This document shows, one piece after another, positions 3-9,025 of a DNA stretch of 32,774 nucleotides. The number at the start of each line of letters is the position of its first letter. Positions within the stretch are counted from its first letter, which is position 1. The stretch comes from Alphaproteobacteria bacterium (GTDB lineage: Bacteria; Pseudomonadota; Alphaproteobacteria; GCA-2731375). The stretch is from NCBI GenBank assembly GCA_016869175.1, contig VGEV01000028.1, positions 1 to 32,774 of the forward strand. The letters are read 5' to 3'. The notes beneath the pieces were generated by a model. That model worked only from the letters and a program-made list of their open reading frames with translations. It made no database searches and was not told the DNA's origin. The position numbers and the translations under genes were made by a program.

Positions 3-203
3 GGCATTTCGCGGCAGAGCCTGCATGCCATTCTGCGGGAAGCGACCGCCGTCACGCCCGAGATGGCGGTCAGGCTCGGCAAGTTCTGCGGCAACGGTCC
101 CGGCCTGTGGCTGCGCATGCAGGCGGCGCACGACCTCTGGCACGCCGAGCGGCGTTTGCGCGACGAAGTCGCCCGCATCCCGACGGCGAGGGTGGCCGCG
201 TGA
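3..203 (+). CDS. higA: HigA-family antitoxin, C-terminal part (cut by window edge)
   Basis: The frame open from base 3 to the TGA at 201-203 gives 66 residues, with no start inside the window. It reads like the C-terminal two thirds of HigA/XRE antitoxins: the recognition-helix stretch ISRQSLHAIL, then VTPEMAVRLGKF, then LWLRMQAAHDLWHAER, the family hallmark (ITPemAlRLgk...WLnlQaayDLw). HigA proteins bind and neutralise a RelE-fold HigB toxin and repress their own operon. HigB would lie upstream, outside the window. The next gene starts with GTG at 200 and overlaps this stop as GTGA, suggesting translational coupling. Seen: motif and overlap. Inferred: antitoxin role. The longer overlapping frame from base 1 has no recognisable protein character. 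Confidence 0.8.
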   Translation, partial: GISRQSLHAILREATAVTPEMAVRLGKFCGNGPGLWLRMQAAHDLWHAERRLRDEVARIPTARVAA

Positions 204-901: not shown

Positions 902-1017
902 ACTTGCCACACTCGCGCCGGGGAAAGCCTATTTTCTCGCCCAGGTAAGTAGGCGGCGCGAGCCGCATCTTGTCGCCATCGCTAGACGCAAACCCGCGTC
1001 GGAAATTGGTGGTGACG

Positions 1018-1236
1018 ATGCAGAACGCAATTTTTTTGACGACTTCGGAAGCGGCCGAACGGCTGCGACTGTCGGCGCGGACGCTCGAACGGATGCGCCT
1101 TTTCGGCTCCGGGCCGCCGTTTCGGGCGCACGGCCGCCGGATTTTGTACTCGGCGGCGGACCTGGAGGCGTGGTCGGCCAGCCGCTCGACGTGCTCGACG
1201 GCTGAACGCGACGCAGCGAAGGCGGCCGACCGATGA
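1018..1236 (+). CDS. Small helix-turn-helix DNA-binding protein (AlpA/excisionase-like)
   Basis: 72 residues from the ATG at 1018, with a GGTGGTGA ribosome-binding stretch just upstream. An in-frame TTG at 970 lacks such a site. Residues 5-30 (FLTTSEAAERLRLSARTLER) match the winged HTH of the MerR/excisionase/AlpA superfamily, followed by a wing-like segment (PPFRAHGRRILYSAADLEAW) typical of the HTH_17 type. Such proteins act as excisionases or activators in prophages and satellites. The stop overlaps the next start as ATGA (1233-1236), so it is probably co-translated with the primase. Whether it acts on excision, transcription or both cannot be told from sequence. Confidence 0.8.
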   Translation: MQNAIFLTTSEAAERLRLSARTLERMRLFGSGPPFRAHGRRILYSAADLEAWSASRSTCSTAERDAAKAADR

Positions 1237-3776
1237 CCGCCTCCGCAGCTTGCGCCATGCCGCCGCCCGGCGCTGACGAAAAAGAAATCCTCGCCTTTCT
1301 GACTTGGTTGCACGGCCAAGCCATGCGTGGCGCCGTCGAGGTTGCTTGGAAGAACAGGCAGGGCGCACTCGCCAAGGCCGAGCTTTTTCTGCCGGAAAAT
1401 CTGGACCTCGCCGCCGCCAAGGCGGCCGAAGTCAACATTGTCGAGGGCGCTGATGTCTATGTTGGCGCGGCGCTGCGCAAGTGTGGCACCTTCCCACACG
1501 GCCGCACGTCGGACGCCGACTTTTTGGAAGCGTGGGCGCTGCACGCCGATTTCGACCTGCCCGGCGCGGTCGAGGTCGCCTTGGAGCGGTGCCGGCAGCT
1601 AGGCATCGAGCCGAGCGCCATTGTCACCACGGGGCGCATTCCGCATCACCGCGCGCAATTTTGGTGGCGCCTCGACGAGCCGATAGCCGACCCAGCAATC
1701 TATTCGGACGCCTTGAAGGCGCTGGCGACGGCGCTCGGCGGCGATCCGACCGTCACCAACCCCGGCCGCGTGATGCGGTTGCCGGGCACGATAGCTTGGC
1801 CCTGGAAAGAAGGCCGGGAACGCGAATTGTCGGAGTTCGCCGCCGGCAGCGGTGGGATGTACCCACTCGAAAAGTTCGCGCGGATATCCACGCTAGCCGA
1901 GCCGCTTCCCGGGGCACTGAGCGAGCCCCGCGCGGAAAGCGCCACGGCGTCGAACGAACCGCGCGCCAGGGCGCCGCACGAGGACGGCATCGTGCGCGCC
2001 ACGACGGGGCTGGGGCTGGATGGAGCCGTCATCGACGGTCGGGAAGGGTACATGCGCGACACCGTGCTGGCGGTGGCGCTCGAACTGACAGGTGCGCTCG
2101 AACGCTGGCCGACCGCCAGCGAAATCGACGAAGCCGGGTGGCTGCAGTATGCGGCGCACGTCGACCTAAGCCGGCCGGGGCGAAGCCGTGAGGAATTCAG
2201 ACGGAAGGCGGTTTACCTGGCCGACCGGCTGGCGCGTGGCGCCGTGAAGGGCGTGCCAAGCGTCGCCGAGGCGGTGGAGCGGTATCGTCAGCGGCATGCA
2301 GGCGCTGGCACTAAGCCTGAGCGGCCGCGCCCTCTGTTGCGCGAGTTACCGCCAGCGGACCCGTTCCCCGTCGACGCCTTGGGCGACGTGCTGGAGGCTG
2401 CCGCGCGCGGCATTCATGATCGCGTGCAAGCGCCAATGGCGATCTGCGGGCAAGCCGTCCTGGCAGCGGTGACGCTGGCCGTTCAAGGGCATGCGGATAT
2501 CGTGCTGCCGACCGGCCATGCCAGGCCGCTGTCGGGGTTTTTCCTCACGGTGGCCGCGACCGGCGAGCGCAAGACCGCGTGCGACGGGGAGGCGCTGTGG
2601 CCAATCCGGACGCGCGAAAAGTCGCTGAGCGCCGACTATCAGATTGCACGCGAACGGCACGCCAACGCGCGCGAGGCGTGGGAGAAGCAGCGCGCGCAGG
2701 TGCTAGCCGACAAAAAGAAATTCCCCGACAAGGAGGCGAAGGTGCGGGCTCTCGACAACCTCGGGCCGGCGCCGGTCGCGCCTCTCTTGCCGATGCTGCT
2801 CTGCCCCGAACCCACCTTCGAGGGCCTTTGCCGGCTGCTGGCTGAGGGCCACCCGAGTGCCGGCATCTTCTCGGCGGAAGGTGGCCAGTTTGTGGGCGGC
2901 TATGGCATGAGCCCAGACAACAAACTCAAGACCGCGGCAGCGATGTCGGGGCTGTGGGACGGCGAGCCGATCCGGCGCGTGCGCGCCGGCGATGGCGTGT
3001 CAATGCTGCCAGGCCGCCGCGTGGCGCTGCACTTGATGGCCCAGCCGGACGTGGCGGCGGCAATTCTGTCGGACCCCCTGCTCCTCGACCAGGGCCTTCT
3101 CTCGCGCGTGCTCGCGACGGCGCCCGAGCCGGCGGCGGGCACGCGGTTGTGGCGCGACCCCAAGCCCGCCAGTGACGCGGCGCTCAAACGATATGGCGCG
3201 CGGATGCTGTCGATCTTGGAAGCCGCGCCACCGCTGGTGGAGGGGCGGCCGAACGAACTCGCTCCCCGCGCAATGCCGATGTCGGCGGTGGCGCGGGCGG
3301 CGTGGATCGCCTATGCCGACCATGTCGAAGGGATGATCGGCCCGGCCGGCCCGCTGCATCGGATCCGAGGGCTGGCGAACAAACTGCCCGAACACGCCGC
3401 CCGCCTGGCGGCCGTCCTCGCTCTTGTCGATGACTTGTGCGTTTTCGAATTGTCCGGCCCGCACATGGCCGCCGGCATCCGGCTCGCGGAGCACTACGCC
3501 GTGGAGGCATTGCGGCTTTTCGAGGGCGGACGAGCCGACGGCGAATTGCTCTTGGCGGCGCGCCTGCTGGATTGGGTGCAAACCGAGTGGCCCGAACCAC
3601 TGATATCTTTGCCGGACATTTACCAGCGCGGGCCGAACGCTATCCGCGATGGCAAGACGGCGCGGCGGCTCATGGGCGTGCTCGTGGAGCACGGATGGGT
3701 CGCGCCGGTGCCCGGCGGCGGCGTTGTCTGCGGAGTGTGGCGCCGCGAGGCGTGGCGGGTCGTGCGGGCGCCCTGA
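1233..3776 (+). CDS. Primase-polymerase / DUF3987 helicase-like replication protein
   Basis: 847 residues, ATG overlapping the previous stop. The N-terminal ~230 residues look like an archaeo-eukaryotic primase (RepB/PrimPol type): an acidic DFD at 106-108, a TTGR...PHHRAQFWWRLDEP block near 132-150, and NPGRVMRLPGT near 176, all characteristic of plasmid and phage primases. A linker follows. The C-terminal part from about residue 370 resembles DUF3987, with LSGFFLTVAATGERKT at about 434-448, where ATGERKT stands in for a Walker A loop. Such fusions replicate phages, plasmids and satellites. It is the core of the element and leads into the next gene with a TGATG overlap. Domain calls are from motif memory, not a profile search. 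Confidence 0.85.
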   Translation: MTASAACAMPPPGADEKEILAFLTWLHGQAMRGAVEVAWKNRQGALAKAELFLPENLDLAAAKAAEVNIVEGADVYVGAALRKCGTFPHGRTSDADFLEAWALHADFDLPGAVEVALERCRQLGIEPSAIVTTGRIPHHRAQFWWRLDEPIADPAIYSDALKALATALGGDPTVTNPGRVMRLPGTIAWPWKEGRERELSEFAAGSGGMYPLEKFARISTLAEPLPGALSEPRAESATASNEPRARAPHEDGIVRATTGLGLDGAVIDGREGYMRDTVLAVALELTGALERWPTASEIDEAGWLQYAAHVDLSRPGRSREEFRRKAVYLADRLARGAVKGVPSVAEAVERYRQRHAGAGTKPERPRPLLRELPPADPFPVDALGDVLEAAARGIHDRVQAPMAICGQAVLAAVTLAVQGHADIVLPTGHARPLSGFFLTVAATGERKTACDGEALWPIRTREKSLSADYQIARERHANAREAWEKQRAQVLADKKKFPDKEAKVRALDNLGPAPVAPLLPMLLCPEPTFEGLCRLLAEGHPSAGIFSAEGGQFVGGYGMSPDNKLKTAAAMSGLWDGEPIRRVRAGDGVSMLPGRRVALHLMAQPDVAAAILSDPLLLDQGLLSRVLATAPEPAAGTRLWRDPKPASDAALKRYGARMLSILEAAPPLVEGRPNELAPRAMPMSAVARAAWIAYADHVEGMIGPAGPLHRIRGLANKLPEHAARLAAVLALVDDLCVFELSGPHMAAGIRLAEHYAVEALRLFEGGRADGELLLAARLLDWVQTEWPEPLISLPDIYQRGPNAIRDGKTARRLMGVLVEHGWVAPVPGGGVVCGVWRREAWRVVRAP

Positions 3777-4294
3777 TGGGCAGTTATCGGAAATTCGACC
3801 CGGCCCCCTTCCTTGCGGAAAATCGAGGAGCGGGAAGCGGGGCTGCTAAAGTTGCTAAAGTTGCTAAAGCTACCCCCACCGCACCGCCCACTTTAGCAGC
3901 TTTAGCAACTTTAGCAGGGGCTGCCTCGCAAGCTGTGAATTCTGGCCGGCTGGCCGAGGGCAAGGCCCTCACTGCGTGCGCGGGGCCTGCGGCGAAGTCT
4001 GGGCCGGTCACGACGGGGCGCTTGGCTGAGGCGGAGCGCCAGGTCGCCCACGAGCGCGCCATCGTGCGCTGGCTGGCGGCGAACCCGCCGCCCGTCGCTG
4101 ACCCCAACACGTGTGCCCATTGCCGGCAGCCGGAAACCCGCGACGCGGCCCTGTTGCCGTTCCTGGCCGGCGACGACACGCACCGCTGGGTGCACGGCCG
4201 CTGCTGGTCGGACTGGCACCGGACGCGGCGCCTGGCAGCCGAGCGCGCCCTGGCGGCGGCCCGCGACGACACTGGCCCTAGGTCCGCAGCTTGA
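3776..4294 (+). CDS. Unknown element protein with zinc-binding CxxC...HxxC motif
   Basis: 172 residues starting at the ATG at 3776, coupled to the primase stop (TGATG). Residues 23-48 are encoded by a near-perfect 27-bp inverted repeat and read as an AKV repeat followed by an LAALATLAG segment. That peptide is probably a by-product of a DNA signal rather than a fold. The C-terminal half carries C113 and C116 (CAHC), then H140 and C143 (HGRC), flanked by WxH and W residues; the spacing fits a single structural zinc site. Similar small CxxC/HxxC proteins occur beside primases in phages and satellites, from general knowledge. Function unknown. Confidence 0.7.
   Translation: MGSYRKFDPAPFLAENRGAGSGAAKVAKVAKATPTAPPTLAALATLAGAASQAVNSGRLAEGKALTACAGPAAKSGPVTTGRLAEAERQVAHERAIVRWLAANPPPVADPNTCAHCRQPETRDAALLPFLAGDDTHRWVHGRCWSDWHRTRRLAAERALAAARDDTGPRSAA
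3843..3917. repeat. 27-bp inverted repeat made of 9-bp iteron-like units
   Basis: Left arm 3843-3869 contains three head-to-tail copies of a 9-bp unit (consensus TTGCTAAAG; the first begins with C instead of T). Right arm 3891-3917 holds the same unit three times inverted (CTTTAGCAA-type). The arms match at 26 of 27 positions and are separated by 21 bases. The units are AT-rich against a GC-rich background. The repeat lies inside a coding region 67 bases after the primase stop. It could be an origin with primase or initiator binding sites, a hairpin for priming, or a regulatory hairpin. The repeat is seen directly; its function is inference. Confidence 0.9.
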
Positions 4295-4770
4295 CCGTGT
4301 TAGACGACCTCGCCGCCCAATACCTGGCCAGCGTCGAAGCCGGAACGGCTGAGCCCAGGACAACCTCTGGCCGGCCGGCTTGCCTGATCGCGCGGCTTCT
4401 CGTGGAAGCGCGGTTGACCGAATGCCAATTCATGGCGGGCGCCAGGTTCCGCGAAGCGCATCACAAGGCCAGCCGGGGGACGACCACCGCCCACGCTTGG
4501 CCAAAAGCGATGGTTGGGCGCCTGCAACCAGCCTACAGGACGCCGGACAGCGCGGCGACGTTGCAGCATCGGCAGGCTTACCAAGCGATGCTGGGGGCGC
4601 TCCCGCCGCTTCTGGCAGTCGCCGCGCTTGCCATGATCGTCTATGACCGGCCTCCACACGAATACGGATCGAAGGTTTTCCAGTATCGGAACCGCGACGG
4701 AGCGGCAGCGGGCGGGCTGGTCTCGTTAATTCACGCGACGGACTTGCTGGCCGAACAATTCCCCGAGTAG
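4291..4770 (+). CDS. Hypothetical protein at the end of the mobile element
   Basis: Up to 159 residues. TTG at 4291 overlaps the preceding stop (TTGA), and a GTG at 4297 is an alternative start two codons later. I do not recognise the family. The sequence is mostly helical with short basic stretches, including a segment near residues 80-115 (RQAYQAMLGALPPLLAVAAL) too short and mixed to call a membrane helix with confidence. It is the last gene before the tRNA and continues the tightly coupled series of overlapping genes from base 200. The next 188 bases (4771-4958) hold no gene I can support. Confidence 0.55.
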   Translation: MTVLDDLAAQYLASVEAGTAEPRTTSGRPACLIARLLVEARLTECQFMAGARFREAHHKASRGTTTAHAWPKAMVGRLQPAYRTPDSAATLQHRQAYQAMLGALPPLLAVAALAMIVYDRPPHEYGSKVFQYRNRDGAAAGGLVSLIHATDLLAEQFPE

Positions 4771-4958
4771 GTATTGTGAATTTAGATGAAAAGGCGCAAA
4801 ATCGCTCACGCTGCCGTTCCAGCGTTCGGTTTTCGCAGGGGCGCGAATTTCGTCCGCCGGGCGCTTCCAGGCTCTGCGAAATCCGTCCGCGTGGTTGCTA
4901 GACGGTAGCTACGGGCCATCGCGCCGTTCGGTCTTTCACGCTAAGTCATTGAAGTAAT

Positions 4959-5035
4959 TGGCGCGCCCGGCAGGATTCGAACCTGCGACCCCCAGATTAG
5001 GAATCTGATGCTCTATCCTGCTGAGCTACGGGCGC
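4959..5035 (-). tRNA. tRNA-Arg (anticodon CCT), CCA encoded
   Basis: Read on the minus strand, the 7-bp acceptor stem GCGCCCG/CGGGCGC, the D-arm (GCTC...GAGC), the anticodon arm TCAGA-TTCCTAA-TCTGG, the T-arm with TTCGAAT and a genomically encoded CCA are all present. The anticodon is CCT, which reads AGG. The 3' end faces the mobile-element genes on the left, the orientation expected if an integrase used the 3' part of this tRNA as attachment site. The second att copy would be at the far end of the element, beyond base 1. Confidence 0.95.
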
Positions 5036-5115
5036 CCTGGGCCAGTGCAAGCAAGCAATAGCAGAAGCGACCGCCCGGCAGAAGCCGGCGGCGCCCGGCG
5101 CGCCGGCCTGCCGGC

Positions 5116-5397
5116 TCAGCAAAGCTTGCGGTAGACCCGGACGTTGCAGATATGCGGGATGCCCTGCGTGCCGACGTCGTCGGCCCGGCCGGACACCGCG
5201 GTCAAGCTCGGCTCGATGATCAGCCCGGCGCGCACCGCCTCGTCCATCGCGGCGTTGAGCGCCGGCACCGCGGCCAGCACGACCGCGGTGATCTCGCGGT
5301 CGCGCTCGGCGGCCTGCTGCGCCGCGCCGGTGCCGCCGGCGACCGCGGTCGGCCGCTGCGGCGCCCGTTCCATCTGCGCGATGTTGCTTGCCGGCAT
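5116..5397 (-). CDS. Small unknown protein under a c-di-GMP riboswitch
   Basis: 93 residues, ATG at 5397. An AAGGGA ribosome binding site lies about seven bases upstream, immediately at the 3' edge of a class I cyclic-di-GMP aptamer. No signal peptide, membrane helix or named domain is visible. The N-terminus is Ala/Gln/Arg-rich and probably flexible. Residues about 34-58 (REITAVVLAAVPALNAAMDE) look like an amphipathic helix, and the C-terminal part (LIIEPSLTAV...NVRVYRKLC) looks like short beta strands ending in a terminal cysteine. Its position makes it a likely c-di-GMP-controlled effector. I cannot name a function. Confidence 0.7.
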   Translation of the reverse strand: MPASNIAQMERAPQRPTAVAGGTGAAQQAAERDREITAVVLAAVPALNAAMDEAVRAGLIIEPSLTAVSGRADDVGTQGIPHICNVRVYRKLC

Positions 5398-5407
5398 GCC
5401 TTGGTCC

Positions 5408-5502
5408 CTTCGGTGGCCCCGCTACCTGGCCCTTGCGGGGCTTGAGGCCGGAGGCTTTGCGTCCCGCCGTTTCCGACGGTTTGCCGTTATCGAGGAGGCC
5501 GA
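5408..5502 (-). promoter_or_regulatory. Class I cyclic-di-GMP riboswitch (GEMM)
   Basis: On the minus strand the class I (GEMM) core elements appear in order. First is a GGCAAACC block at about 5485-5478. Next is a perfect 6-bp stem capped by a GAAA tetraloop (CCGTCG-GAAA-CGGCGG). Then come GGGACGCAAAGCCTCCGGCC, a second arm, and AGGTAGCGGGG followed by CACCGA. These match the Vibrio cholerae Vc2 aptamer, as I recall it, nearly block for block. The aptamer ends against the ribosome binding site of the 5116-5397 gene, and no poly-U terminator lies between, so translational control is the simplest model. Direction (on or off) is not evident. A GC hairpin at 5504-5519 lies just upstream. Confidence 0.93.
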
Positions 5503-5565
5503 CGGGCGGCTTGCCGCCCGGCCGGTTCCAGGGCGCGAGACTAGGGCCGGCCGCTTACCGCCGGG

Positions 5566-6111
5566 TTAACGCCGGGCCGGCGCGAACAGCCCGTCGAGCG
5601 GCAGGGCGTAGCTCAAGATCAGGCTTTCGGTCCCCGGATTGTCGTCGCCGATCCCGGCATTGGACAGATGGCCATAGGCAAGGCCCAACCGCGAGCGGTC
5701 GGCGAAGCGATAGGCGAACTCGATCTGCGAGCGGAATTCCAAGGTGGCGCCGAGATCCTTGCTGCTGCCGCGGTGATAGGCGCCGGGGGCGAAACTGAGC
5801 GTGGTGACGATCCGTCGCCCCCAATAGAGGTCGACCAGCACGCCGGCATAGCCATAGAGGGCGCCGTCGTCGTTGCCGAGCATGCCCAGAAACGGCTTGA
5901 ACATGAGGAACCGCCAGCCCGAGCGGAATTCCAGCCGGGCTTCGCCCGTGCGGTGTTCGTCGTTGACGTCGAACACGCCGAACCCGGCCACCAGAAAGGC
6001 CGGATCGTCGGTTTCGGCCTGGGCGGGCGGGGCGGCCAGCGCCAGCGCCAAGGCGGTCGCCGACAGCAAGGCCCGACCGCGCCCCTGGCCACGGCGTCGC
6101 CGCCTCGGCAT
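5566..6111 (-). CDS. pagL: PagL-like lipid A 3-O-deacylase (acyloxyacyl hydrolase family)
   Basis: 181 residues from the ATG at 6111, preceded by GGGGTGG; upstream in-frame starts would add a sequence without signal-peptide character. An arginine-rich N-region and a hydrophobic stretch ending APPAQA form a signal peptide. The rest has the alternating aromatic strands of an outer-membrane beta barrel. The C-terminal GHLSN...NPGTES block is the PagL hallmark, with catalytic H148, S150 and E162 in the same spacing as the Pseudomonas enzyme (His-x-Ser-x11-Glu). The family removes the 3-linked acyl chain of lipid A in the outer membrane. It is divergent from the gene at 6144, and the riboswitch lies 63 bases past its stop on the same strand. 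Confidence 0.85.
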   Translation of the reverse strand: MPRRRRRGQGRGRALLSATALALALAAPPAQAETDDPAFLVAGFGVFDVNDEHRTGEARLEFRSGWRFLMFKPFLGMLGNDDGALYGYAGVLVDLYWGRRIVTTLSFAPGAYHRGSSKDLGATLEFRSQIEFAYRFADRSRLGLAYGHLSNAGIGDDNPGTESLILSYALPLDGLFAPARR

Positions 6112-6143
6112 GCTTGCCACCCCTGCTCGGAAGGATCCGCCCG

Positions 6144-6979
6144 ATGGCAGTCTATGAAGGCCGCCGATGGTGGGCAACGGCGCTGCTGGCATTGGGCCTG
6201 TCGCTCGCGACGACGACCGTTGCCGAGCGGCGCGAGGCGCCGCCGCTCGACCGTCTGGCCAGCGGCGGCAGCGCGCGCGTGGTCGAGGCGATCGACGGCG
6301 ATACGGTGGTCCTGGCGGACGGTCGACAGGTTCGCCTGGTCGGTATTCAGGCGCCCAAACTGCCGCTCGGTCGGGCCGATTTTCCCGCCTGGCCGCTCGC
6401 GCCGGAAGCCAAGACCCGGCTGGAGAGCCTGGCGCTGGGCCGCCCGGTCAGTCTGCTGCATGGCGGACGGCGGACCGACCGGCACGGCCGGGTACTGGCG
6501 CATCTCAGACGCGAGGATGGCCTGTGGTTGCAGGGCGAGATGCTGCGCTCGGGCTTGGCCCGCGTCTATACCTTCGCCGACAACCGGGCGCTGGCGGCCG
6601 AGATGCTGGCGCTGGAAGGCGAAGCGCGGGCTGCCCGGCGAGGGCTCTGGGGCCACCCGTTCTATGCGATACGCCGGCACGATGCGCTGTCGGGGGTCGT
6701 CGACAGCTTCCAGCTGGTCGAGGCTGCGTGCTGTCGGTCGGCGAAGCCGGCGGTCGCGCCTTCCTCAATTTCGGCGCCGACTGGCGAACCGATTTCACCG
6801 CCCGGCTGGAGGCAAGCGATCGTGAGTTGTTCCGCCGCGCGGGCGTCGACTATCGTGCGTTCGAGGGTGCTCTGGTCAGGCTGCGCGGCTGGGTGGAATG
6901 GCGCAACGGACCGGAAGTGCACCTGACCCATCCCGAGGCAATAGAACGGCTGGATGGCGCCGAAGAGAAACGGAGATAG
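6144..6979 (+). pseudogene. Thermonuclease-family (SNase-like) protein, frameshifted
   Basis: Starts at the ATG at 6144 after GGAAGGA. Residues about 1-27 form a signal peptide or anchor (WWATALLALGLSLATTTVA), followed by an SNase/OB-fold core (VVEAIDGDTVVLADGRQVRLVGIQAP...DRHGRVLAHL...LRSGLARVY). Near 6722-6725 the frame breaks: the downstream frame continues as VLSVGEAGGRAFLNFGADW...VEWRNGPEVHLTHPEAIE, the expected C-terminal domain, so one base (probably a G) appears missing. The staphylococcal active-site Asp40/Glu43 region reads GIQAPK here, lacking the catalytic glutamate. Either a recent pseudogene or a sequencing/assembly error. Confidence 0.8.
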
Positions 6980-6983
6980 TCGG

Positions 6984-8447
6984 GTGCCGGCAAGGCGCGC
7001 TGGCGCGCTGGCGGTGGCGCTGGCGGTGTGCGTGGGCCTGGCGGGCAGCGGGCCCGCCCGGGCGCAGTTCGTTTCGGAGGCCGACGAAGCGAGGATCGGC
7101 GCCGAGGAACATTCCAAGATGGTGCGCCAGTTCGGCGGCGCCTATGAGGACGAGAAACAAACCGGCTTCTATGTCGCCCGGTTGGGCGCCCGCATCGTGC
7201 AGAATTCGGAACGGGCGGGACGCAGCTTCATATTCACCTTGCTCGACTCGCGCGACGTCAATGCCTTCGCGCTGCCCGGCGGCTATGTCTACGTCACGCG
7301 AGGCATTCTGGCACTGATGAACACCGAGGCCGAGTTGGCCGGCGTGCTGGGGCACGAGGTCGGCCATGTCGTCGCCCGCCATACCGCGCAGCGCATCAAC
7401 CGCGCGGTCACCACGAACCTGGTCACCGGCGTGCTGGGCGGGCTGCTGGGCGCGGCGCTGGGCGTGCCGGAGGTGGCGCAACTGGGGCAATTGGTCGGCG
7501 CCGGGCTGCTGGCGCAGTATTCGCAGGATCAGGAATTCGAGGCCGACGAGCTTGGCGTCCGCTACATGAGCAAGGCCGGCTACAACCCTCTGGCACAGGC
7601 CGACCTGCTGAGTTCGCTGTCGCGCGAAAGCGAACTGGCGCGCGCCGTGGCCGGCAATACCGGGCGCGACCCGCTGGAGGACTTCTTCGCCAGCCATCCG
7701 AACACGCTGGAGCGGGTGCAGCGCGCCATCGCCGAGGCCAAGGAGGCCGGCGCCGGTGGCGGTGCGGACTATGGCCGCGAGGCGTTCCTGGCGCAGATCG
7801 ATGGCATGGTGTTCGGCGACAGCGCCGAGCACGGCTTCATTCGCGGTCGAATATTCGCCCACCCGAAGCTGCGTTTCAGCTTTGCCGCGCCCGGGGGTTT
7901 CCGCCTGCTGAACCGCGCCGACGCCGTGTTGGCACGCGGCCCAGGCGAGGCCTTGATCAAGCTTGACCACGCGCCCAGAAGCGCCAGTGGCGATCCGATG
8001 ATCTACCTGACCCGGGAATGGGCGGCGCAAGCCAACCTGCAGTCGCTGCGCCACTTCGAAGCGAACGGCTTGGCCGGGGCGACCGGCATCACCCGGATTC
8101 AGAACCAGCAGCTGGGAACCCGCGACGCGCGCCTGGCGGTGCTGCGCCTGGCGCCCGGCCAGCTCTATCGCTTTCTGTTCGTCACGCCGGCCGGGCAACT
8201 GGCGCGCTTCGATCGCGGCTTCGAGGCGACGCTGCTGAGCTTCCGGGCGCTCGGGTCGGCGGAGGCGGCGGCGCTGAAACCGCTGCGTGTCCGGGTGGTG
8301 ACGGTCAGGCCGGGCGACACGATCGACAGTCTGGGCCGGCGGATGGCGGTCGAGGACTACCCGGTCGAACGCTTCCGGGTGTTGAACGCGCTGGACGGCG
8401 ATGCCGGCTTGCGCGCCGGCGACAAAGTCAAGCTGGTCGGCGAATGA
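6984..8447 (+). CDS. M48-family zinc metalloprotease with C-terminal LysM-like domain
   Basis: 487 residues from the GTG at 6984, preceded by CGGAGA; the in-frame ATG at 6954 would lie inside the previous gene and lengthen the signal peptide. The signal peptide ends near GPARAQ. The HEVGH zinc motif is at residues 124-128, and the third ligand is in the ExxxD motif at 184-188 (EFEAD). The layout matches BepA/LoiP-type periplasmic M48 proteases involved in outer-membrane quality control. The last ~50 residues (VVTVRPGDTIDSLGRRM...LRAGDKVKLV) look like a LysM peptidoglycan-binding repeat. The stop overlaps the next start (ATGA). Confidence 0.9.
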   Translation: MPARRAGALAVALAVCVGLAGSGPARAQFVSEADEARIGAEEHSKMVRQFGGAYEDEKQTGFYVARLGARIVQNSERAGRSFIFTLLDSRDVNAFALPGGYVYVTRGILALMNTEAELAGVLGHEVGHVVARHTAQRINRAVTTNLVTGVLGGLLGAALGVPEVAQLGQLVGAGLLAQYSQDQEFEADELGVRYMSKAGYNPLAQADLLSSLSRESELARAVAGNTGRDPLEDFFASHPNTLERVQRAIAEAKEAGAGGGADYGREAFLAQIDGMVFGDSAEHGFIRGRIFAHPKLRFSFAAPGGFRLLNRADAVLARGPGEALIKLDHAPRSASGDPMIYLTREWAAQANLQSLRHFEANGLAGATGITRIQNQQLGTRDARLAVLRLAPGQLYRFLFVTPAGQLARFDRGFEATLLSFRALGSAEAAALKPLRVRVVTVRPGDTIDSLGRRMAVEDYPVERFRVLNALDGDAGLRAGDKVKLVGE

Positions 8448-9025
8448 CACCGTCGGCGCCCCGCCGGCGGTTGGTCGATGCCGCGCTGGCGGAAGCCGAT
8501 AGGGTGGGCTGGCGCAATCTCAGCCTGTTTGCCGTGGCGCGGCGGGCGGGCTTGCCGTTGGCCGACGCGGCCAGGGAGTTCGCGGACCTCGACGCGGTTG
8601 GCGAAGCCTGGCTGGCGCGTGCCGATCAGGCAATGCTGGCGCTGGCCGAGCAGGAGGGGTTCGCCGAAGTTAGCGCCCGCGAACGGGTCGAACGAGCGTT
8701 GACGACATGGCTCGCGGCCCTGCGCGGGCGCCGCCGGGTGCTTGGCGACATGCTCGCCTACAAGCTGCGTCCGGCGCATGTGCATCTGCACGCGGCGCTG
8801 GTGGTCGGTCTGTCGCGCCGCGTTCAGTGGCTGCGTCAGGCGGCGCTGCTGCCGGCAGGCGGGGCGCAGCGCGATTTCGAGGAGGTCGGCTTGACCTTGC
8901 TGTTCGTGGCCGCGGTGTCGCGCTGGCTTGCCGAGGACGCGGACGACTTCCCGGCGACGCGGCAATGGCTCGCGCGCCGCCTGGCGTCGGCCGAATGGCT
9001 GATGCGCGGGCTGTTCGTGCGTTGA
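8444..9025 (+). CDS. TetR/COQ9-like regulator
   Basis: 193 residues, ATG overlapping the protease stop. Residues 7-45 (RRLVDAALAEADRVGWRNLSL...) match the N-terminal TetR helix-turn-helix, though the recognition helix (LADAAREF) is atypical. The C-terminal part (EEVGLTLLFVAAVSRWLAEDADDFPATRQWLARRLASAEWLM) resembles the C-terminal region of COQ9-related TetR proteins, where a WL-D-D segment precedes a final RR-containing helix. It may be a ligand-binding regulator rather than a ubiquinone-biosynthesis protein. Coupling to the protease suggests a shared envelope-stress or housekeeping function. Family assignment is from pattern memory. Confidence 0.65.
   Translation: MTPSAPRRRLVDAALAEADRVGWRNLSLFAVARRAGLPLADAAREFADLDAVGEAWLARADQAMLALAEQEGFAEVSARERVERALTTWLAALRGRRRVLGDMLAYKLRPAHVHLHAALVVGLSRRVQWLRQAALLPAGGAQRDFEEVGLTLLFVAAVSRWLAEDADDFPATRQWLARRLASAEWLMRGLFVR

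Follow-up and report, generated by a model that had tools for sequence, protein, structure and literature searches.

Genes and features of the locus

The features that concern us here lie in the first part of the window, by which we mean the whole 32,774-nt stretch of DNA that was analyzed, and they are listed in Table 1. At the contig start (window positions 3-200) is the 3' portion of an antitoxin gene of the HigA family (TIGR02607). Downstream of this lie a gene for a small DNA-binding protein, a large primase-helicase gene, two smaller open reading frames and a tRNA-Arg gene.

Table 1. Features of the locus and of related contigs of the same genome. Positions are those of the window unless a contig (C) is named.
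Feature	Positions	Strand	Remarks
Helix-turn-helix protein, excisionase/AlpA-like	970-1236	+	HTH_17, 1e-11; phrog_66 (excisionase and transcriptional regulator), 2e-10
Primase-helicase, 847 aa	1233-3776	+	N-terminal primase-like part, DUF3987 (YfjI-family) AAA+ helicase, predicted C-terminal winged helix; proposed iteron-binding initiator
Small ORF, 172 aa	3776-4294	+	array in N-terminal linker; C-terminal part conserved, Cys/His/Trp-rich (CAHC..W.H..CW..W)
Inverted repeat, upstream arm	3843-3869	+	three 9-bp units, CTGCTAAAG TTGCTAAAG TTGCTAAAG, pointing to the spacer
Spacer between the arms	3870-3890		21 nt, CTACCCCCACCGCACCGCCCA; 24% AT
Inverted repeat, downstream arm	3891-3917	-	three 9-bp units, CTGCTAAAG/TTGCTAAAG/CTGCTAAAG
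159-aa ORF	4291-4770	+	final ORF of the element on this side of att; the C33 element has a copy with 96% identity
tRNA-Arg(CCT)	4959-5035	-	integration target
46-bp att core	4959-5004	-	tRNA-Arg gene, 3' part; second copy, next to the tyrosine integrase gene, at C124:2899-2944
Tyrosine integrase, 396 aa	C124:1539-2729	-	adjoins the att copy; phrog_1 (integrase), E = 3e-67
Sister element L009 (C33)	4776-8613		at tRNA-Lys; primase half and last ORF kept, helicase half and iterons different

The att core recurs only once elsewhere in the genome, in C124, where no complete tRNA is present at the copy. Because it recurs there beside an integrase gene, the window appears to begin within an integrative element that spans some 7.9 kb or more and is split over contigs; the link between the window and C124 is made through the common 46-bp core, and with the window starting at a contig end the element is partly visible. 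No virion genes are found in its visible part. It has the set of genes by which PICI and PICMI elements are recognized, namely an integrase, an AlpA/excisionase-like protein, a primase and an att in a specific site. Upstream of the integrase gene in C124 (locus L147), TAGCTACC is present three times at 11-bp steps (2750-2779), and a single copy of TAGCTACG is located near the other att, at window positions 4904-4913. These repeats are likely integrase arm sites.

The helicase part of the 847-aa protein matches PF13148 (DUF3987, YfjI) with an E-value of 4e-83 (280 bits; curated cut-off, 27), and the RepB_primase match at its N-terminus is weak (E = 0.02). Among the PHROG families, phrog_2373 (DNA helicase; 3e-50) and phrog_10514 (DNA primase; 1e-6) were matched. 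With AlphaFold2, the helicase half was modeled at a mean pLDDT of 93 as an AAA+-like core that is followed by a helix-strand-helix-helix-strands arrangement, with helices at residues 372-386, 395-401 and 409-421 and then strands up to residue 445; from this order of secondary structure, and not from a dedicated search, we predict a C-terminal winged helix. The best neighbors of the model in the PDB (Foldseek) are MCM helicases (E = 5e-5), with a TM-score of only about 0.3. None of the PDB sequences matched the helicase profile, nor was similarity to solved members of the D5/SaPI Rep family found. A tblastn search of 50,697 INPHARED phage records gave no match to the window helicase; the helicase of locus L086 is likewise without a match among isolated phages, and those of L127 and L051 have two distant matches each.

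An opposed array of 9-bp units inside a coding sequence

The array starts 67 bp past the stop codon of the DUF3987 gene. Its unit is TTGCTAAAG, of which the first base is C or T, and there are three copies in each direction. The earlier note had described a near-perfect 27-bp inverted repeat with three units each way inside a coding frame, and this is what our repeat search of the window returned: two 27-nt arms, 26 of whose 27 positions (96%) are complementary, on either side of a 21-nt spacer. When up to one mismatch is allowed, the iteron is found seven times in the window, one of them outside the array, against an expectation of 1.6, and no shuffled sequence reached seven. All four occurrences of GCTAAAGNTGCTAAAG in the 3.97-Mb genome are in the array, and no further copy of the tandem core was detected anywhere in this genome. 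The GC content of the array is 49%, versus 68% for the window.

The array lies within the small ORF, whose ATG overlaps the stop codon of the primase-DUF3987 gene, and which has no Pfam or PHROG match. The array-coded stretch reads GAAKVAKVAKATPTAPPTLAALATLAGA, in which the iterons are translated as AKVAKVAK and TLAALATLA. Given these amino acids, the codons used in both arms are expected, from the codon usage of the window, with a probability of 10^-23.5, and the lowest value among 20,000 simulated codings of the same peptide was 10^-14.2. For instance, all three leucines of the array are encoded by TTA, which accounts for 0.9% of the Leu codons. Because the choice of codons is this extreme, and because the reading frame and the coding status vary between loci (see below), the array is a DNA-level signal, written in codons that are very improbable for the host gene. 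The best explanation for the array-coded peptide is that it is a by-product, held only in so far as the frame must stay open.

Opposed arrays with a period of nine follow DUF3987 genes in diverse genomes

Exact matches to the iteron were sought in 84,980 genomes, where ten loci were found, and nine viral contigs were obtained besides. Three of the ten genome loci and one of the nine viral contigs have a DUF3987-like helicase gene at the iterons. In L016 (Omnitrophota), L017 (Alphaproteobacteria) and L028, opposed arrays are located directly after this gene, and in L019 (Methylomonas) the iteron copies span its stop codon.

For the wider survey, loci were collected by family and alignment, not by repeat, from genomes and viral contigs. 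A viral scan using the window protein alone gave no match, and a scan using the alignment gave 43 loci in IMG/VR. Together with C33 and the four iteron-fetched loci, and with the window included, this resulted in 94 non-redundant DUF3987 loci. The strict detector required two tandem copies plus an inverted pair, each with at most two mismatches, in the zone from -100 to +300 relative to the stop codon. Opposed arrays with a period of 9 were detected in this way at 27 of the 94 loci, whereas the other 413 kb of this DNA would lead one to expect 0.27, and the Markov controls gave none. Other periods gave one locus (period 7), one locus (period 8) or none (periods 10-14), and without the window and the four iteron-fetched loci the count was 23 of 89. 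With relaxed detection (a score of 4 or more), arrays were found at 37 of the 94 loci, versus 1/93 and 0/89 control stretches. A clear array at this place is missing in more than half of the 94 loci, and the two E. coli YfjI regions that were scanned have none. Those arrays that are present after DUF3987 genes span bacterial genomes of several lineages as well as viral contigs.

The geometry was compared over 29 loci. Most of these have 3+3 units, the median start is at +49 and the median spacer is 22 bp. The units themselves differ among loci (CGCAATATC, GCTACTTCC, AACTGACAG, GTGCCA type), as do the frames in which they are read (TLA or NFS; SVA or VSQ); thus, the second array of L016 is read as NFSNFSNFS and not as TLATLATLA. 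No open frame runs through the arrays of L028, L049, L126 and L132, and coding therefore does not impose the 9-bp period. In most loci of the TGCTA type this motif is on the coding strand in the upstream array, and hence the two arrays face each other. At three loci, the array is upstream of the DUF3987 gene.

The earlier note had suggested that the DNA signal shapes the protein and not the reverse, and it had named an alignment of homologues as a check of DNA symmetry against codons. The comparison of loci comes out in favor of this suggestion: the opposed 9-bp arrays are kept, at the same place, while their sequence, frame and coding status change. The converse explanation, that the repeats exist for the sake of the Ala/Lys/Val and Thr/Leu/Ala tripeptides and that the symmetry of the DNA is incidental, could appeal to L013, L014 and L027, where the same DNA occurs as Ala/Lys-rich coding repeats without an opposed partner. 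The codon test, the differences in frame and the non-coding arrays make it extremely improbable, and none of the loci examined is a homologue that keeps the peptide with synonymous, asymmetric DNA.

A hairpin could also maintain an inverted repeat, either as a cruciform, as the self-priming site that the earlier note had put forward, or as an RNA fold that governs how the small ORF is translated. The RNA of the array indeed forms a long stem when folded (z = -3.4), but so would any inverted repeat, and a hairpin does not need a tandem period of 9 bp. Moreover, the units do not co-vary in the hairpin register: over the 29 loci, we counted 123 mismatches versus 129.5 when units were permuted, so the arms match no better. 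L044 and L046 have iteron copies in one direction only, and the sole Rfam match in the window is the tRNA. Self-priming was therefore abandoned, and we judge any form of the hairpin explanation to be very unlikely.

The 19.2-kb circular Pseudomonas putida plasmid NZ_CP043577 (L151) contains a YfjI-family gene followed by direct 9-bp repeats of the GTGTCGCCA type. No other replication initiator is present among 11 of its 15 annotated genes, and its replication may therefore depend on the YfjI-repeat system.

The iterons change together with the helicase half

Over the surveyed loci, the distance between iterons tracks that between helicases (Mantel r = 0.45, p = 0.0005), a correlation that does not point to the C-terminal domain in particular (partial r = 0.04). 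A comparison within the genome is provided by the sister element in C33. Its primase half, its last ORF and the end of its small ORF are 75%, 96% and 66% identical to those of the window, respectively, while its helicase half shows no significant BLAST similarity and its iterons are of the TGCAA type, 9 bp apart and two each way (2+2). In C221, GCGGACGGT iterons lie within the 3' end of another helicase-like gene, and the small ORF after this gene has an end with 88% identity to that of the window. The N-terminal part of the small ORF is not conserved in either C33 or C221. The iteron goes with the helicase half, not with the primase half or the small ORF. With 75% identity retained in the primase half, an exchanged helicase half is accompanied by other iterons, and for this reason the binder is likely the helicase half rather than the primase half. 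The arrangement in C33 reflects modular exchange between elements of one genome.

Alternatively, the iterons might be bound by the protein that the surrounding small ORF encodes, as for lambda O. The array does lie in the linker between the two parts of this ORF, and an origin within an initiator gene has a precedent in lambda. However, the arrays of L028, L049, L126 and L132 lack such an ORF; among L016, L017 and the window, which have the same iteron, the downstream ORFs vary in length and in their C-terminal part; and in C33 and C221 the end of the ORF is kept (66-88%) next to different iterons. We therefore consider an origin bound by the small-ORF product unlikely. In the window and in L016, L017, L039, L040 and L046, the otherwise different ORFs that follow the DUF3987 gene begin alike (M..FDP) before the array-coded linker, and this common start is perhaps a helicase-contact peptide.

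In C187 (L010), four 9-bp repeats in the same direction (GGCACGCTG; 3334-3369) are present upstream of a related primase that has an AAA_25 ATPase partner; an inverted partner of these repeats was not found.

A putative replication origin

Judged on sequence, we consider it probable (about 0.8) that the array is the origin core of the integrative mobile element and is bound by the DUF3987 AAA+ helicase via its C-terminal winged helix. The earlier note had proposed an origin or a primase-binding site; the first part, as the origin of a mobile element with satellite-like traits, is retained as the best reading, given the integrase, the tRNA att and the SaPI/PICI-like position, and the second gives way to the helicase half as the likely binder. 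We infer the following series of events. The product of the primase-DUF3987 gene would bind the iterons through the winged helix, with one helicase ring per array and the rings facing each other; the helicase would open the AT-richer DNA of the arrays and load itself, giving bidirectional replication; and the origin would sit in that part of the following gene which encodes the linker.

Repressors, integrases and partition proteins also use opposed short repeats, and only 1 kb separates the array from the end of the element. The arrays might thus be operators or other protein sites, serving autoregulation, partition, packaging or integrase arm binding. Such sites are not expected to recur at about +49 after a helicase gene in many kinds of elements and in viral contigs, at the 3' end of a gene instead of a promoter, and to change together with the helicase half; in addition, the putative arm repeats have another sequence (TAGCTACC). 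A role of this kind is decidedly unlikely.

If the helicase-bound origin is correct, the plan known from SaPIs and PICIs would be present in compact form beside a different helicase family, which probably makes these origins short, portable and predictable. It would thereby give DUF3987 a likely function and make testable how a self-loading helicase can recognize an origin that lacks an AT-rich core and melt it. It also carries a warning: tripeptide repeats such as AKVAKVAK or TLATLATLA encoded adjacent to such genes would be origin DNA and not protein motifs. A more general proposal, which we put forward tentatively and at less than even odds, is that DUF3987/YfjI proteins form an MCM-like family of initiator helicases with a compact origin class of their own. 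These origins would consist of two converging 9-bp triads about 22 bp apart and lack an AT-rich melting region, with a pair of rings loading head to head on the triads; specificity would be exchanged as a helicase-iteron module, and the origin would commonly be tolerated in the coding linker of the next gene. If true, compact origins in coding linkers would explain many tripeptide-repeat proteins in databases.

Comparison with known origins

Searches of a collection of open-access papers turned up no account of an origin of the DUF3987 type. The iterons of the phage lambda origin are located in the coding linker of gene O, which encodes their binder; here, iterons also lie within a coding linker, but the binder is probably encoded by the gene before. 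Origins of iteron plasmids (RK2, F, P1, R6K) similarly contain repeated initiator sites, and they use a separate host helicase. Their iterons are 17-22 bp long (PMC4980987), whereas those described here are 9 bp, opposed and probably bound by the helicase itself.

The Cch2 helicase of SCCmec is closer, since its C-terminal domain binds to short repeats located directly behind the gene that encodes it; these are direct 5-nt AAGTG iterons, however, and the inverted repeats there are dispensable for binding (PMC7581432). In the PICMI satellites of Vibrio, deletion of the DUF3987-type primase gene lowers replication. They share with the window element the set of int, AlpA-like and DUF3987-type primase genes but integrate next to fis instead of in tRNA-Arg, and the paper on them does not use the word iteron, nor was an origin sequence found in the parts consulted (PMC10803314).

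The closest parallel is with the SaPIs and PICIs. SaPI Rep helicases recognize, by their C-terminal domain, iterons directly downstream of the rep gene, apparently as two hexamers (PMC7581432), and in the PICIs of Gram-negative bacteria two iteron sets flank an AT-rich region 3' of rep, the rep-ori segment being able to maintain a plasmid (PMC6092414). The window array likewise consists of two opposed sets of short iterons directly 3' of the gene for what would be a self-loading initiator helicase, with a primase part that is fused or adjacent (PMC6092414, PMC7581432), and by analogy we propose recognition by the C-terminal domain for DUF3987 too. The differences are that the initiator is of the DUF3987/YfjI and not of the D5/DUF927 type, that the period is almost strictly 9 with 3+3 units, that the array is usually read through by the next gene and that the window spacer is not an AT-rich region. 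When the same detector was applied to D5_N helicases, opposed arrays were found at 17 of 29 loci; their spacers have a median length of 74 bp and are enriched in AT (p = 5e-5). As this is the published plan, it validates our approach to array detection. Several of the inter-array spacers of these D5_N loci (L155-L164) contain alternating CGCG/TGCG and inverted repeats resembling GGTTTTTC...GAAAAACC. The DUF3987 spacers are shorter (22 versus 74 bp, p = 4e-7), and over the 29 loci their AT content is not above that of the gene (p = 0.09), so that an AT-rich melting region was not found in the spacer; it is the arms that are richer in AT than the gene (+12 points, p = 3e-5). Because the DUF3987 spacer is shorter and not enriched in AT, the array is, by this analogy, best explained as a compact variant of the SaPI/PICI origin plan.
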